Shown: positions 20,384-26,325 of the stretch, in pieces
Layout: every line of letters starts with the position of its first letter
How positions within the stretch are numbered: the first letter of the stretch is position 1
NCBI RefSeq assembly: GCF_001957135.1
Contig: NZ_MPHK01000006.1
Span: 168,884 to 232,883, forward strand
Reading direction: 5' to 3'
DNA from: Shewanella sp. UCD-KL21
GTDB lineage: Bacteria > Pseudomonadota > Gammaproteobacteria > Enterobacterales > Shewanellaceae
DNA: 64,000 bases
The notes under the pieces: model-generated
What the model saw: only the letters and a program-made list of their open reading frames with translations
Told to the model about the DNA's origin: nothing
Database searches by the model: none
Made by a program: the position numbers and the translations under genes

Positions 20384-20707
<324 letters not shown>

Positions 20708-20732
20708 GAAGTAATTCTTAAGCTGTTGTATT

Positions 20733-20767
20733 AAAACGGGTTTTTCGGTAACGAAAAGCCCGTTTTT
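20733..20767 (+). terminator. Intrinsic terminator of fis
   Basis: A 15-bp stem (20733-20747 / 20752-20766, one G-T pair) has a GTAA loop and a T-run, 26 bp after the fis stop. Confidence 0.9.
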
Positions 20768-20975
20768 GCTTATATGTACCCTCATATGTGCCCCCGCTGT
20801 TTTGTTGCCCCCTTCCTGTATTTGATTCCGCCTTCTTTAAACGCAATTCCCAAACTAAAACTTTAGCTTTTACTAATAGTTAAATATCAGATAATGATAC
20901 AAAAAATGCTTGGTGCGTCAGATTCTGTCGCAGGGTAGTATTATGCTGATGGCATAAAGAATCGGGAGAACATCG

Positions 20976-21983
20976 ATGCAAATCAATATCCAACGCCAAA
21001 TTGCCATGCTGGAGAAAATACCCACTCATCCAAGGCGCATTACTGCTAATGACATCACAGCAAGACTGCAAAGCCGTGATTTTGATATTGGATTAAGAAC
21101 CGTGCAGCGGGAATTAAAAGCCATGTACGACATGGGGCTGTTTGGCATAGTGCTCGATGATCGAAGCAAACCGTTTGGCTGGTCGATTGCCGCCTGTTGG
21201 CGCGGTCTTAACTTGACCTTGATGGACAATCACATGGCATTAGCCTTTCACACCCTAAAGCATAGCGCTAGCCAACTGCTGCCTCCCCAAAGCCTTAAGC
21301 AGCTAACCCCTTATTTTGAACGTGCCGATCAAATACTTGGTAACGATCCTGATAACCCTTGGCTGTACTGGGCGTGTCGTGTGGCGCAGTTACCAAAACC
21401 TTTTCCTTTGATTATTGAGCAGCAAGATCCACAGATATTTGAAGCCGTACAATCGGCTCTGCTTAATAAGCGTCAGATCGCCTGCGAAATAAAACGCCCT
21501 ATCGAAGGCAAAAGCTATTGGATTGATTACTCGCCCATTAACCCTGAAGGCATAAAGATATCTGATGGCGTCGCGCTGCTAACCTTTACCATTGGTACTG
21601 TAGATCCAAGAATTTATGCCAAATCCATCGATTTACTGCGTAATGTGCGATTGCTCGATACCCCCGCCATTACTCGCAGTGATGCTGAGCTTGCTGCTAG
21701 AAAAAACAACCATAAATCAGAGCTTATTGACATTGAATTGCTGTTTTCTGCATCAGCAAACTTCATCATGCGCAACGCCAAATTAAGTGACAATCAAACA
21801 GTTGAGCAATTACAAGATAAACGCTATCTGGTTAAGGCTAGCGTTAAAGACACCTCAGGATTAAGATCATTACTGTGGAGCATGGCTGACAATGTCGAAG
21901 TGTTAGCTCCGGCCAAATTAAGAGCCCATTTCACTCGATTGATTAACAAGGTCAATGCGCGTTACCAAAATGCTGCGTCTTAG
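20976..21983 (+). CDS. DeoR/WYL-type transcriptional regulator with degenerate WYL motif
   Basis: 335 residues. N-terminal winged helix typical of WYL regulators (RQIAMLEKIPTHPRRITAND, then GLRTVQRELKAMYDMG; FGIVLDDRSKPFGWSI is the wing). The C-terminal ligand-binding part has CEIKRP, YWIDYSPINPEGIKISDG and VALLTFTIGTVDPRIYAKSI: the position of the eponymous WYL is filled by ALL, so the motif is degenerate. A WCX-like tail follows (ASVKDTSGLRSLLWSMADNVEVLAP). GGGAG precedes the ATG. Only 53 bp separate it from the FtsZ-like gene, so the two are likely one operon. WYL proteins usually sense a small ligand or nucleic acid and repress or activate stress and defence genes. Confidence 0.85.
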   Translation: MQINIQRQIAMLEKIPTHPRRITANDITARLQSRDFDIGLRTVQRELKAMYDMGLFGIVLDDRSKPFGWSIAACWRGLNLTLMDNHMALAFHTLKHSASQLLPPQSLKQLTPYFERADQILGNDPDNPWLYWACRVAQLPKPFPLIIEQQDPQIFEAVQSALLNKRQIACEIKRPIEGKSYWIDYSPINPEGIKISDGVALLTFTIGTVDPRIYAKSIDLLRNVRLLDTPAITRSDAELAARKNNHKSELIDIELLFSASANFIMRNAKLSDNQTVEQLQDKRYLVKASVKDTSGLRSLLWSMADNVEVLAPAKLRAHFTRLINKVNARYQNAAS

Positions 21984-22036
21984 GCTGTCGCATCCTTAAG
22001 TTACCCTGCTTAGCATAACTTCAAGGAGATGAATCG

Positions 22037-23194
22037 ATGTTTGACTTAGTGACGCAAAACTCCCCATCACCTCGCATTGCCGTTTTCGGTGTGGGAGGCT
22101 GTGGCTGCAATACCATCAATCAACTTAGCCAATCGCCACTCAATGACAATGTACAGTTGATCGCCGTTAATACCGATGCGCAATCACTGCAGGCGGCGCG
22201 ATCTAGCACTCGATTACAAATTGGCATTGAAGCCACCAAAGGATTAGGTGCGGGCGCTAAGCCTGAAAAAGGTCAAGCCGCTGCGCAGGAGTCTGAAGCG
22301 CAGATAAAAGAGCTTATTGAACTCGCTGATATTATTTTTATTACTGGCGGCATGGGCGGCGGCACGGGCACTGGCGCCATTCCGTTTATGGCTTCAGTCG
22401 CCGCAGCGCTTAATAAACCGTTAATTGCCGTGGTTACCACCCCGTTCAGTTTTGAGGGGCAGCAAAGAAACCGCCTGGCCAATGAAGGCGTCGATGAATT
22501 AATGCAGCACGCCAATGCTGTGATCGTGTTACCTAACGACAAACTGGCTAAAACTCTGGATAAAAAAGTCAGCCTAGTTAACGCCTTTTTTGAAAGTAAC
22601 CGTATTTTGCAAGATGTATTACTGGGGTTAACCACCACCATTAGCCAATCAGGTTTGATCAATATCGATCTCAACGATTTCATTGCGGTGGTCAGTCACC
22701 ATGGGCGAGCCGCTATGGGCGTTGCTAAACAAATGCCAGGTGAAGAGTTACAACTAACGATTAATAGCGCCCTTAAAAATCCATTACTGGCAGACGTTGA
22801 GCTGACTCATGCCAAAGGGGCGATAGTCAGTGTGATGGCCTCTGAAAATATTGAGCTCAGCCAATATAATATGATTGGCGAAACCCTGCTGCAGCAACTC
22901 GACCCTAGCGCATTGGTGATTATTGGATTAACCATAGTCCCTGAGCTAGATTGCGAGCTGGAATTGATGGTGATTGCCACCGGTATTCACGCCGCTACAG
23001 ACTCAGCAGCAATCATTATGGATGATGTTAAAGCGCCGCCTTCAACAGACCGTTTTGCATCGCTAGAGCTGCTTAATCTGCATGACTTTCTAAAAGAAAA
23101 GTCCGCAGGCAGTAACGATGATAGTCATTGCTTAGCTGAGCTCGATGTCCCTACCTATACCCGTAACTTAAATCAAAAAACAGCCATGCAGTAA
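22037..23194 (+). CDS. Second, divergent FtsZ-like tubulin GTPase (FtsZ paralogue)
   Basis: 385 residues. The tubulin/FtsZ fold is complete: RIAVFGVGGCGCNTINQL (T1, with Cys for two Gly of the usual GVGGGGGN), AVNTDAQSL (T2-T3), GGMGGGTGTGA (T4 tubulin signature, residues 104-114), TTPFSFEGQQR (T5) and VLPNDKL (T6). The T7 synergy loop keeps N209, D211 and D214 (NIDLND), so GTPase activity in a polymer is expected. The C-terminal domain ends near GLTIVPELDCELELMVIATG, then a roughly 55-residue linker and a tail LDVPTYTRN (369-377) resembling the FtsZ docking peptide for FtsA/ZipA. This is not the dcw-cluster ftsZ: there are no division genes around it. AAGGAGAT precedes the start. Confidence 0.9.
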   Translation: MFDLVTQNSPSPRIAVFGVGGCGCNTINQLSQSPLNDNVQLIAVNTDAQSLQAARSSTRLQIGIEATKGLGAGAKPEKGQAAAQESEAQIKELIELADIIFITGGMGGGTGTGAIPFMASVAAALNKPLIAVVTTPFSFEGQQRNRLANEGVDELMQHANAVIVLPNDKLAKTLDKKVSLVNAFFESNRILQDVLLGLTTTISQSGLINIDLNDFIAVVSHHGRAAMGVAKQMPGEELQLTINSALKNPLLADVELTHAKGAIVSVMASENIELSQYNMIGETLLQQLDPSALVIIGLTIVPELDCELELMVIATGIHAATDSAAIIMDDVKAPPSTDRFASLELLNLHDFLKEKSAGSNDDSHCLAELDVPTYTRNLNQKTAMQ

Positions 23195-23227
23195 TATCCA
23201 AACAGCGCTGGGTTGAGCAGCTTCTGA

Positions 23228-23262
23228 GATCTGGCGTTATATCTTTGACGTAACGCCAGATC
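23228..23262. repeat. Perfect inverted repeat between convergent ftsZ-like and helicase genes
   Basis: Arms GATCTGGCGTTA (23228-23239) and its complement (23251-23262), 12 bp perfect with an 11-nt loop, centred in the 89-bp gap. There is no T-run on either side, so it could be a weak shared terminator or a protein-binding site. Confidence 0.6.
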
Positions 23263-23283
23263 GCATCCATCCCTTCAGCCAGC

Positions 23284-26200
23284 CTAGCTAGGCAATACCA
23301 ACTTGGCTTTATCCACGGCATGGGTGCAACTTGGCCTGCTGTTAGGGTTGAGCTTGTTGCCGTTATAGTTGTTACTTGGGCTATGACTACCACGATAATT
23401 TTTACAGCCCCAGAATTCACCTCGAGCGCTTTTTCTTAGCACCATATCAGCGCCGCAAACGCTGCATAGCGGCGTGGTATGGGCGCATTGCTCATTAAGG
23501 CAGACTTTAAAACCATCAAAGCGTTTACGGGTCATTGGGCTAGCACAACGCTCGCACCCTGCTTCTTTGTGGTCGCACAAAGGAAAGTGGCAACAAGAAT
23601 AGAATGATTTAAAGTTACCAGTTCTTTGCTTTAACACCCCAGTGGTGCAGCGAACACAGTTAATATCTGCAAACAGCCTTTGCACTATAGAGGTGGTAAA
23701 TTCAGCTTGCTCGATGGCATAACCATCTTGAATAAGCTCTGTGACAAACGGGCTGACATCGGTCATATCGGCCAGCACATAGGCGCGGTGTTTGGCGCGA
23801 GTTAACGCCACATAAAATAACCGCCGCTCTTCAGCAAACTTAAAGTCTTCTGCTTTCGCTAAAAAGGCATCTAACAACGGCGGGGTGATTTTATTTGATG
23901 GAAAGCCATGCTGGCCGGTTTTCATCCCCATTATGACCACATAGTCAGCCTCTTTACCTTTGGAACCATGAAAGGACTGACACTCAATGGTTATATTGGG
24001 ATATTGCAGATTCAGTTGTCTTAGGGCATTGCTATCTGGCAGCTGAAACCAAAAGCGAGCCAGTAAGTACACTATCGGTTGCTTTGCGCCAGCTTTCAGC
24101 TTATTGACCCTAGTACTAATCGCCGACAATGCTTGCGCTAACGCATTAGGGCTTGGGTTGTCAGCTGTGGCGGCTTCATGTTCGCCGCGCTTAATCACTG
24201 ACACAGCAGGTTTGGTCACAACCTCGTTGGAGCGAATCTGTTTTTTAAGCTGCGCCGGATTTTGAGTGACAAACTGGGTAGCAACATCGCCAATGCTGCT
24301 ATTAAATCGAAATGTTTGGTCAAGATAGCTTGTCGCCGCTGCGCCAAAGTAGTCACTAAAATGGGTCGTTAGGCTGACATCTGCGCCACTAAAACGATAA
24401 ATAGCCTGCCAGTCATCGCCAACACCAAACAGTGACGCTGTGGTTTTACTCTGTGGTGGGTAAGCCTGTGTTAGCGCTTTAACTAAACGGGCTCTAGGCT
24501 CGGAGATATCTTGAAATTCATCCACCATAATATAACGCCACGGGCTGATAAATTGCCCTGTTTGTATATAGTTAAGCGCCTTGGCAATCATGTCTTCAAA
24601 GTCGATATCGCCATTTGCAGCTAACTGCCGTTGGTAAGCGGTTAATATGGGCTGGAGTAATTCAAATGCCTTACGGCTTTGTTTGGGATCAGTCGCTTGA
24701 TTAAATAGCTTGTCTAGGGCTTTATTATCAAGGCAAGCCGCTTTGTATAAACCAATAAGCTGACTAAATAATTTGGCTAATTCAGTCACCCGCCCAAGCT
24801 CATTAAGGGTTGCAAGTATCGCGTCATCGGGCAGCGGCGCATATTGCAGTTCAAATATCGTTAACGCCTGTTCCAATTCAGCCGTTAATTGGCCCTTTTT
24901 ATGCTGATAGTAAAATAGCTCGATACAGGCAGTACCATGCTGCTGATGTAATTCACGTTTCCACTGTATCGACTCAAGATAGGCCTGATTATCAATATAG
25001 CTGGCGGTATTATTAACCTCATCAATGCCATAATATTCAATATAAACATCATATTCTGGCAGGTAAAAATCTGGCTGGTACTGGCGAAAATCAACGCTGC
25101 TAACATCATGCTCATACTTGGCTTCATAGCAATATTCAATGCCGCTTCTAAATAGCCAGTTGGCAATATACAGCTCGCCGAAACTCTTAACCCGCTCGCC
25201 TTTAAGCGTGCGAATATCGTTGTCAGTTAAGTATTGGAAATACTCGCCTTCGGATTCAAACTCAAATGGGCTTCTTTCCACATAATAATATTGGCTAAAG
25301 AACTCAAACAGCCGTTTGCGGTAAGCCTCCTCTTTAAGCAAGCTATCAAGCTTGAGTTGCAACCATTTCTCTTTGGCTTGGTCATCTTCTGCCAATGGTG
25401 ACAAACTGGGCTGCTTGCCTTCCACTGCTGCAATAATCCTTAAACCAAGGCTGTGAAAGGTGCTGGCTTTGATATCATCAGTGCCGAGCTTTTGTTTAAT
25501 ACGGGCATCCATTTCGTCAGCGGCTTTGCGGCCATAGGCCAGTAATAAAATATCCGCTGCTTGGGCTTGGCCGCTGGCAACTAAATAGCCTGCACGCCCC
25601 ACCATGACACTGGTTTTACCGGTGCCAGCCCCTGCCAGTAATAAATTATTATCGTCATCAATAACGCATGCGCGGCGCTGTTTATCGGTTAATGGCTGTG
25701 ATTCAACATTATCAAAAAAGTCGCCATATTTGATTAATTGCCCGTCAACATAAGCCGCTCGGATTTGCGCTATCTTGGCGTTATTCCAATGGTAAAAGCC
25801 AGATAGCTTCACTAGCGCAGCTTTAAGCTTGACCGATAACTGCGCCGATTTACACCATGGAAACCAGCGGCGATATTCACGTTTAATCCGAGGCTGCATT
25901 TGCCTAAGCAGCGACTGACGTAAATACTTATTGGCTAAGGTATGCTCAATGCGGGCGATTAACTCACACAGCTGCTGCTCATGAGCTTGCGCCCAATATT
26001 GTTCAATCTCTTGTTTGAATTTAGCGTTAGAAAAGTAGCCTAGAAATGGCACTTGATAAGACTGCCCTTGGGTTTGAAATCTAAGCAAATTGCCTAAAAA
26101 GCTTGGGGTCAACTCAGCTGGCGCGGCCAGTTGCTGCCAAGTAAATTGTTGCAGCTGAGGCACTGTTTTGGCTGTAAACCACTGCCTAAATAAATGACCT

Positions 26201-26325
26201 TGATGAGCACGAAATTCAATGCCGCTAGCCGATAATTTAATGGCATCAACAGCTCCTAAATACAGGCGACCAAACCAACTATGCTTGATCGTTTTTTCTG
26301 AATTTTTACATTTTTCTGGTAACAA
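23284..26325 (-). CDS. UvrD/HelD-like superfamily 1 helicase with nuclease-like insert and zinc ribbons
   Basis: 1013 residues. An N-terminal HelD-type region (about 1-220) precedes the helicase: Walker A LLAGAGTGKTSVMVGRAG (about 230-247), motif II MVDEFQDISEPRARL (about 597-611), GDDWQAIYRFSGAD, LDQTFRFN, SFHGSKGKEADYVV and FYVALTRAKH (late motifs). Between motifs I and II lies an insert (about 385-490) with QPDFYLPEYDVYIEYYG, the core of a PD-(D/E)XK-like fold. The last 130 residues hold three topoisomerase-type zinc ribbons (CVRC...C, CERC...C, CSVCG...C). E. coli HelD has 684 residues, so this is a longer composite. The start is probably TTG at 26325 with AGG upstream; no good ATG is near. 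Likely a DNA repair or recombination helicase. Confidence 0.85.
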   Translation of the reverse strand: MLPEKCKNSEKTIKHSWFGRLYLGAVDAIKLSASGIEFRAHQGHLFRQWFTAKTVPQLQQFTWQQLAAPAELTPSFLGNLLRFQTQGQSYQVPFLGYFSNAKFKQEIEQYWAQAHEQQLCELIARIEHTLANKYLRQSLLRQMQPRIKREYRRWFPWCKSAQLSVKLKAALVKLSGFYHWNNAKIAQIRAAYVDGQLIKYGDFFDNVESQPLTDKQRRACVIDDDNNLLLAGAGTGKTSVMVGRAGYLVASGQAQAADILLLAYGRKAADEMDARIKQKLGTDDIKASTFHSLGLRIIAAVEGKQPSLSPLAEDDQAKEKWLQLKLDSLLKEEAYRKRLFEFFSQYYYVERSPFEFESEGEYFQYLTDNDIRTLKGERVKSFGELYIANWLFRSGIEYCYEAKYEHDVSSVDFRQYQPDFYLPEYDVYIEYYGIDEVNNTASYIDNQAYLESIQWKRELHQQHGTACIELFYYQHKKGQLTAELEQALTIFELQYAPLPDDAILATLNELGRVTELAKLFSQLIGLYKAACLDNKALDKLFNQATDPKQSRKAFELLQPILTAYQRQLAANGDIDFEDMIAKALNYIQTGQFISPWRYIMVDEFQDISEPRARLVKALTQAYPPQSKTTASLFGVGDDWQAIYRFSGADVSLTTHFSDYFGAAATSYLDQTFRFNSSIGDVATQFVTQNPAQLKKQIRSNEVVTKPAVSVIKRGEHEAATADNPSPNALAQALSAISTRVNKLKAGAKQPIVYLLARFWFQLPDSNALRQLNLQYPNITIECQSFHGSKGKEADYVVIMGMKTGQHGFPSNKITPPLLDAFLAKAEDFKFAEERRLFYVALTRAKHRAYVLADMTDVSPFVTELIQDGYAIEQAEFTTSIVQRLFADINCVRCTTGVLKQRTGNFKSFYSCCHFPLCDHKEAGCERCASPMTRKRFDGFKVCLNEQCAHTTPLCSVCGADMVLRKSARGEFWGCKNYRGSHSPSNNYNGNKLNPNSRPSCTHAVDKAKLVLPS

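Follow-up and report, generated by a model that had tools for sequence, protein, structure and literature searches.

A second FtsZ beside a DriD-like WYL regulator in Shewanella: a candidate two-gene module with its own operators

Why would a bacterium that has an ftsZ gene in its usual place carry another, divergent one directly behind a WYL-type regulator? The question is raised by a 64,000-nucleotide stretch of the genome of Shewanella sp. UCD-KL21 (contig NZ_MPHK01000006.1, positions 168,884 to 232,883, forward strand; hereafter the window), where the two genes stand on the same strand with 53 bp between the regulator stop and the start of the FtsZ paralogue, which we call FtsZ2:

20976..21983, + strand: WYL-type regulator (winged helix, degenerate WYL, WCX), 335 amino acids; open reading frame, domain searches, structure model and fold comparison
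22037..23194, + strand: FtsZ paralogue FtsZ2, 385 amino acids; open reading frame, domain searches, structure model and separate clade

An initial annotation of this DNA had taken the two genes for a possible switchable cell-division or stress system lying outside any division gene cluster. Both open reading frames are where it placed them, and no division gene is among their neighbours in the window: on one side lies an apparent prmA-dusB-fis group, and on the other a presumably helD-like helicase gene on the opposite strand. The canonical ftsZ of the host is on another contig (C24), directly 3' of an ftsA-like gene, so the window copy is indeed a second FtsZ and not the main one. A self-contained regulator-FtsZ module is the most likely explanation of our data. 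Four observations can be read directly from the sequence: the linkage of the two genes, a pair of operators, the confinement of the operator to ftsZ2 genes whose genome also has the regulator, and the conservation of GTPase residues.

Linkage and spread of the pair

We found FtsZ2 (best E-value < 1e-110) in 33 of 129 Shewanella genomes. The regulator occurs in the same 33 genomes and adjoins FtsZ2 in every one of them (33/33), so the adjacency noticed in the window holds across the genus wherever FtsZ2 is present. At least 10 different chromosomal neighbourhoods surround the pair in Shewanella, and only the regulator and FtsZ2 are common to all. We then compared tree distances by the mirror-tree approach in 27 of the 33 pair genomes. 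Regulator and FtsZ2 distances correlate strongly (0.92; partial correlation 0.90), and their correlations with host ftsA-ftsZ DNA are 0.46 and 0.40, respectively. Together with the changing chromosomal sites, the correlated distances suggest that the pair moves jointly and in part horizontally. Purifying selection acts on both genes: in 12 hand-chosen pairs of related sequences, dN/dS (the ratio of nonsynonymous to synonymous substitution rates) is 0.03-0.12 in 12/12 pairs for the regulator and 0.05-0.22 in 11/12 for FtsZ2, the remaining pair giving 0.43 with a dS of 0.02. Decayed copies also occur in Shewanella; both genes are broken in one genome (our handle G074), and another (G061) retains regulator fragments without FtsZ2.

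In one other family, FtsZ2 was found (E-value ≤ 1e-72) in 35 of 395 genomes. The regulator is present in 15 of these 35, in tandem with FtsZ2 in 6, tail to tail in 8 and about 14 kb away in one (G628); it is absent from 8/8 searched genomes of the family without such an FtsZ2. The six tandem loci are of Pseudoalteromonas type, judging by an 87% match to a named record. Five Pseudoalteromonas replicons labelled as plasmids (0.68-0.90 Mb) carry FtsZ2, and the regulator lies directly 5' of it in 5/5, as read from positions, with two of the five viewed in full.

We also considered a phage origin of the pair and rejected it, since no regulator relative could be confirmed in viral contigs and the phage and plasmid FtsZ matches stay at the identity level of canonical FtsZ (outside Pseudoalteromonas, ≤ 38.5% among the matches listed, which cover 15 of 116 plasmid and 15 of 25 phage records). 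A natural WYL-FtsZ fusion in G083 (loci L100/L028, one 737-residue frame) was likewise rejected, because the frame changes near the regulator C-terminus and the arrangement is found in a single genome.

Genes near the pair are of several kinds. Of 10 neighbour proteins picked in four genomes for their unusual look, 5 match PADLOC models (G026, G123, G106 and, weakly, G111). An McrC-annotated gene lies near the pair at L160, and housekeeping neighbours are found elsewhere. In the neighbourhood group of the window, a helicase of about 1000 residues (window 23284-26325) follows the pair; another neighbourhood, different in its other genes, also has a helicase downstream of the pair, 34-36% identical to the first (loci concerned: L035-L037, L040-L042, L044).

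A palindrome shared by the two promoters

A palindrome precedes each of the two genes in the window, in the same spacing to a predicted -10 element:

20914..20932, + strand: operator 1, palindrome TGCGTCA-N5-TGTCGCA before the regulator gene; 0 mismatches to TGCGWCA-N5-TGTCGCA
20942..20947, + strand: predicted -10 element TATGCT (TAnnnT), 11 nt after the operator 1 core; composite match starting at 20916
21974..21992, + strand: operator 2, TGCGTCT-N5-TGTCGCA, overlapping the regulator stop codon, before ftsZ2; 1 mismatch to TGCGWCA-N5-TGTCGCA; composite match starting at 21976
22002..22007, + strand: predicted -10 element TACCCT for ftsZ2, spaced as at operator 1

The palindrome was first noticed in an alignment of Shewanella upstream regions, where it is visible, with some variation, in 20/20 regions upstream of the regulator taken from different chromosomal sites. 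An earlier form of the motif, the exact DriD-like core with ≤ 1 mismatch, was found at 6/8 ftsZ2 promoters in genomes that have the regulator versus 0/19 in genomes that lack it (P-value 9.5e-5), and at 0/6 Pseudoalteromonas-type loci. After inspection of these six loci the core was relaxed to CGWC-N7-GWCG and joined to the predicted -10 element, giving the composite motif CGWC-N7-GWCG-N11-TAnnnT, which was scored by script.

In this form the motif is present at 30/32 regulator promoters and 31/32 ftsZ2 promoters of Shewanella (32 of the 33 genomes, G074 with its two broken genes being left out). Outside Shewanella, it is found at 13/14 ftsZ2 promoters where the genome encodes the regulator versus 0/19 where it does not (P-value 2.4e-8; 19 of the 23 FtsZ2 genomes without a regulator were used, namely those with loci, and the G328 ftsZ2 promoter was left out). 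Because the species are related, these P-values and those of the earlier form are too small to be read as probabilities. Regulator promoters outside Shewanella carry the motif in 9/15 cases, all of them of the non-Pseudoalteromonas type (9/9). No composite match arose in 500 base shuffles of each of 48 non-Shewanella sequences. Loss of adjacency does not remove the motif: among tail-to-tail genomes in which both promoters were read it stands at both in 6/7, and in G628, with its genes 14 kb apart, it stands at both separate promoters. The misses are the regulator promoters of G081 and G116, the ftsZ2 promoter of G106, where the genes overlap, and, outside Shewanella, G496, whose ftsZ2 has a stop. 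Start codons wrongly set by the script likely explain G081 and G116; for G081 the palindrome is visible in the alignment.

Within the window, the composite motif occurs only at the regulator and ftsZ2 promoters, and in the host genome exact matches to a stricter composite are likewise confined to these two. Nothing in the host pointed to a wider regulon: at one mismatch the stricter composite gave 8 further places versus 29 for a reversed control, the palindrome alone with one mismatch gave one further place versus 3 in the control, and with three mismatches allowed the palindrome matched 12 times in the window against 10.1 expected. Judged by these controls, only a near-exact site is informative. 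Scans for sigma-70 promoters and terminators gave matches at or below chance, and no structured RNA was found in 20700-23400 at Rfam gathering scores.

Taken together, a regulatory link from the regulator to ftsZ2 is very probable. The idea of a switchable FtsZ, put forward in the initial annotation, gains sequence support from the sites shared by both promoters; its further proposals, an effect on division, a separate filament and a damage or phage signal, stay conjectural. FtsZ2 genes that have neither the regulator in the genome nor the operator were seen at L135, L136, L142, L144-L147, L150-L158, L117, L118 and L128. A second FtsZ can therefore live without this switch, and another control may exist there.

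The regulator and the direction of control

The WCX domain of the regulator scores 37 bits against a Pfam cut-off of 23.9, whereas winged-helix matches are sub-threshold only. Pfam WYL has no match at E-value ≤ 1, and a PADLOC WYL model matches residues 142-323 (E-value 1e-11), which agrees with the earlier description of a degenerate WYL domain. The structure model has a mean predicted local distance difference test score (pLDDT) of 84 and a predicted template modelling score of 0.58. By fold, the best solved relative is the DNA-damage activator DriD, and PafBC, CapW and BrxR were also retrieved; the winged helix-WYL-WCX architecture of DriD/PafBC-type activators is thus present, with WCX above cut-off and Pfam WYL unmatched. 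R41 and R45 of the recognition helix are invariant in 22 rows and in 47 rows of our alignments. Judged by spacing, they would be equivalent to R44 and R48 of PafB, which are described as outward-facing recognition-helix arginines (PMC6789036).

The published DriD site is ATACGAC-N7-GTCGTAT, placed over the -35 region at a fixed distance from the -10 element (PMC12340889). Many operator copies here share the core and spacing of this consensus, and they too lie over the -35 position at a constant distance from the predicted -10 element. Because of this placement we infer that the regulator is an activator like DriD, and consider activation probable. DriD also controls the division inhibitor gene didA in Caulobacter crescentus (PMC4211646), so a regulator of this type can act on division. 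The two proteins differ in that fold alignments show only 14-18% identity, the RLDR motif of DriD is not kept, and the target here is the adjoining FtsZ, the stricter composite being exact at these two genes only. PafBC, a mycobacterial DNA-damage activator, recognizes a promoter described as tTGTCRgtg-8 nt-TannnT (PMC5656591). The regulator resembles it in fold, in the recognition-helix arginine pair and in promoter plan (here TTGTCGCAG-N8-TAnnnT), but PafBC is described as a heterodimer acting at a non-palindromic site, and here a single gene goes with a palindrome.

The fold search also retrieved the WYL regulators BrxR and CapW, repressors of phage-defence systems. Both are encoded beside the genes they control. 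By analogy, the regulator could silence ftsZ2 and its own gene as long as no ligand displaces it. A site over -35 would suit a repressor too, and the WYL arginines differ from those of the activators. We nevertheless consider repression rather unlikely, since the WCX layout, the spacing of the site and its constant distance from the -10 element match DriD, a proven activator, and no sigma-70 promoter was found at either site by a consensus scan. The setting differs as well: the neighbour here is an FtsZ without a PADLOC match, and no defence system is constant beside the pair.

FtsZ2 and the proposed module

Four segments of FtsZ2 stand out:

22094..22114, + strand: T1-loop signature GGCGCNT, residues 20-26 (GGGGGNA in the main FtsZ of the host); C22 in 46/46 and C24 in 91% of FtsZ2 rows
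22661..22678, + strand: T7 catalytic loop NIDLND, residues 209-214; N209, D211 and D214 kept in 46/46 FtsZ2 rows
23066..23095, + strand: extra linker motif ELLNLHDFLK, residues 344-353; recurs in Shewanella rows of an FtsZ alignment, weaker in Paraferrimonas; predicted helix at 348-356
23141..23164, + strand: C-terminal peptide LDVPTYTR, residues 369-376, which corresponds to LDIPAFLR; all FtsZ2 rows (46/46) have P372 and R376

FtsZ2 matches the Tubulin (147.8 bits) and FtsZ_C (59 bits) domains and barely passes the NCBI equivalog TIGR00065 (298.1 bits versus a cut-off of 295.2). Its structure model (mean pLDDT 85) has the FtsZ fold, with a template modelling score of 0.95 (target length) and a root-mean-square deviation of 1.7 to E. 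coli FtsZ (8gzx). FtsZ2 and the main FtsZ of the host are 38% identical. We compared 46 FtsZ2 rows (P0047-P0049 being left out) with 28 canonical FtsZ rows, in which 161 positions are invariant. Of these, 58 are kept in at least 90% of FtsZ2 rows, including the GxGAG of T3 and the whole G-box GGGTGTG, which like the T7 residues is intact in 46/46, as the initial annotation had it for the GTP-binding and T7 residues. Judged by these residues, FtsZ2 is probably a GTPase able to polymerise. A further 54 of the 161 positions are lost, 15 of them to another conserved residue, as with C22, C24 and T26 (T1 loop) and N213 and F215 (T7). The T1-loop cysteines C22 and C24 take the place of glycines of canonical FtsZ, and the pair could be redox-sensitive. 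The C-terminal peptide of FtsZ serves as a tether to FtsA and ZipA; in FtsZ2 its F and L positions are kept in fewer than 30% of the 46 rows.

FtsZ2 forms one clade apart from canonical FtsZ (support 100/99 with 48 rows), which bears out its description as a divergent paralogue. Support is 100/100 in a second tree of 41 rows without P0049, the long-branch FtsZ2-side rows P0050, L141, L135 and L128, and P0047, P0048 and L136; long branches still call for caution in these trees. A tree joining Shewanella FtsZ2 with Shewanella FtsZ was rejected (approximately unbiased test, P-value 0.00025; the group tested was named after the first tree had been inspected). FtsZ2 thus shares with canonical gammaproteobacterial FtsZ the fold, G-box, T7 residues and FtsZ_C domain, but differs in its separate clade, T1-loop cysteines, altered C-terminal peptide and position outside the division cluster: it neither branches with the canonical FtsZ of its host lineage nor lies after ftsA. 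Two other unusual FtsZ loci were seen. In G024 (L110:7851-9215), a divergent FtsZ of 454 residues with GGCGGNA, 38% identical to FtsZ2, follows genes resembling phage structural and lysis genes, as judged by eye, and is perhaps carried by a prophage. In G254 (L127:1408-3019), a tandem pair of ftsZ-like genes lies directly 3' of an ftsA-like gene, the first with a GNGTGTG G-box.

We propose that a signal of some kind activates the regulator, which would bind the palindrome and recruit RNA polymerase at ftsZ2 and, except perhaps in Pseudoalteromonas, at its own gene. The operator at the regulator promoter would provide positive feedback. FtsZ2 would then polymerise, reach the division machinery through its C-terminal peptide, and join, compete with or replace the resident Z-ring, slowing or reshaping division. 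A division role of some sort for FtsZ2 is quite probable. The full scheme, in which a DriD-like regulator is predicted to bind at both promoters and switch on a polymerising FtsZ2 that likely alters or delays division under stress, is in our judgement an even call. A bolder version can be put forward only tentatively: the two genes would be a mobile cassette giving the cell a conditional second Z-ring, with a DriD-type switch sensing stress and the alternative FtsZ taking over or reprogramming division, and would thus do for the division ring what an alternative sigma factor does for transcription.

Several observations weigh against this proposal. Tree topologies agree less strikingly than distances do, as regulator and FtsZ2 share 13/24 splits and each shares 10/24 with ftsA-ftsZ. 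The regulator was not found in 20 of the 35 FtsZ2 genomes of the other family. Both window sites read CGTC-N7-GTCG and deviate from the DriD core at one base, the distal half being CGTC instead of CGAC. Pseudoalteromonas-type loci carry the operator at ftsZ2 but at 0/6 regulator promoters, so autoregulation is not general. The choice of activation over repression comes from the position of the site. Finally, the WYL arginine pair, which from spacing appears to correspond to the R211/R214 taken to bind single-stranded DNA in PafB, is not conserved: where DriD and PafBC have RLDR/RLSR, the aligned letters of the Shewanella regulators are SIDL/PIDL-like, although a shift by one residue could let one lysine align. 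A DriD-like signal may therefore not apply. The tie to DNA damage or phage defence, which the initial annotation drew from the WYL family, agrees with the fold relatives (DriD, PafBC, CapW and BrxR) and is made weaker than the family name suggests by the missing arginines.

FtsZ2 could alternatively be a stand-in ring that the regulator calls up once an inhibitor, perhaps of SOS or phage origin, has blocked the main FtsZ; the changed surface of FtsZ2 would likely let it escape the inhibitor, and division would continue. Catalytic residues and the C-terminal P and R, kept under purifying selection, fit a working ring better than a dead poison; the 54 lost canonical positions and the defence-type genes near some copies also agree with this. 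Full replacement is doubtful, given that FtsZ2 is 38% identical to the main FtsZ and that its C-terminal peptide is altered, and we regard a stand-in ring as unlikely. More unlikely still is a separate filament under the control of the regulator that serves something else than division, for instance the placement of DNA or a stress structure. The separate clade of FtsZ2, its coherent T1 and T7 changes (C22, C24, T26, N213, F215), which could set its own polymer partner, and its presence on large plasmid-labelled replicons in five named Pseudoalteromonas would suit such a filament, but the kept P372 and R376 point to division-site tethers and no third gene is constant beside the pair. A stray ftsZ duplicate next to an unrelated regulator, which the decayed copies in G074 and G061 might suggest, is highly improbable given the 33/33 linkage, shared operators, correlated distances, low dN/dS and the rejected joining tree.

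For the regulator-FtsZ module itself, a search of the open PubMed Central (PMC) literature, with subscription journals mostly outside its scope, gave, among the papers listed, none that described this FtsZ clade or a WYL-FtsZ pair, in line with the initial annotation, to which no described system of this exact pair was known; the word Shewanella is absent from the text of PMC2875224, which reports the new FtsZ families FtsZl-1 and FtsZl-2. The parts are of known kinds, an FtsZ and a DriD-like regulator; for their combination as a module, the operators and the clade of FtsZ2, no description appears to exist in the literature searched. Two FtsZs in one cell or organelle are known from chloroplasts and Haloferax (FtsZ1/FtsZ2 in both). 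Those are standing partners, whereas FtsZ2 here is likely conditional and is patchily distributed.

How bacteria control division under stress is known mainly from small inhibitors, such as SulA, that act on FtsZ or on division proteins that come after it. DidA is another such inhibitor (PMC4211646). If the proposal is correct, the division ring would here be controlled differently, by a regulator that makes a second FtsZ and travels with it as one unit, operators included. The operator offers a handle on it, predicting the promoters, a two-gene regulon in the host and the binding site of the regulator to the base. The pair would also be a natural system for studying how two FtsZs mix or stay apart.

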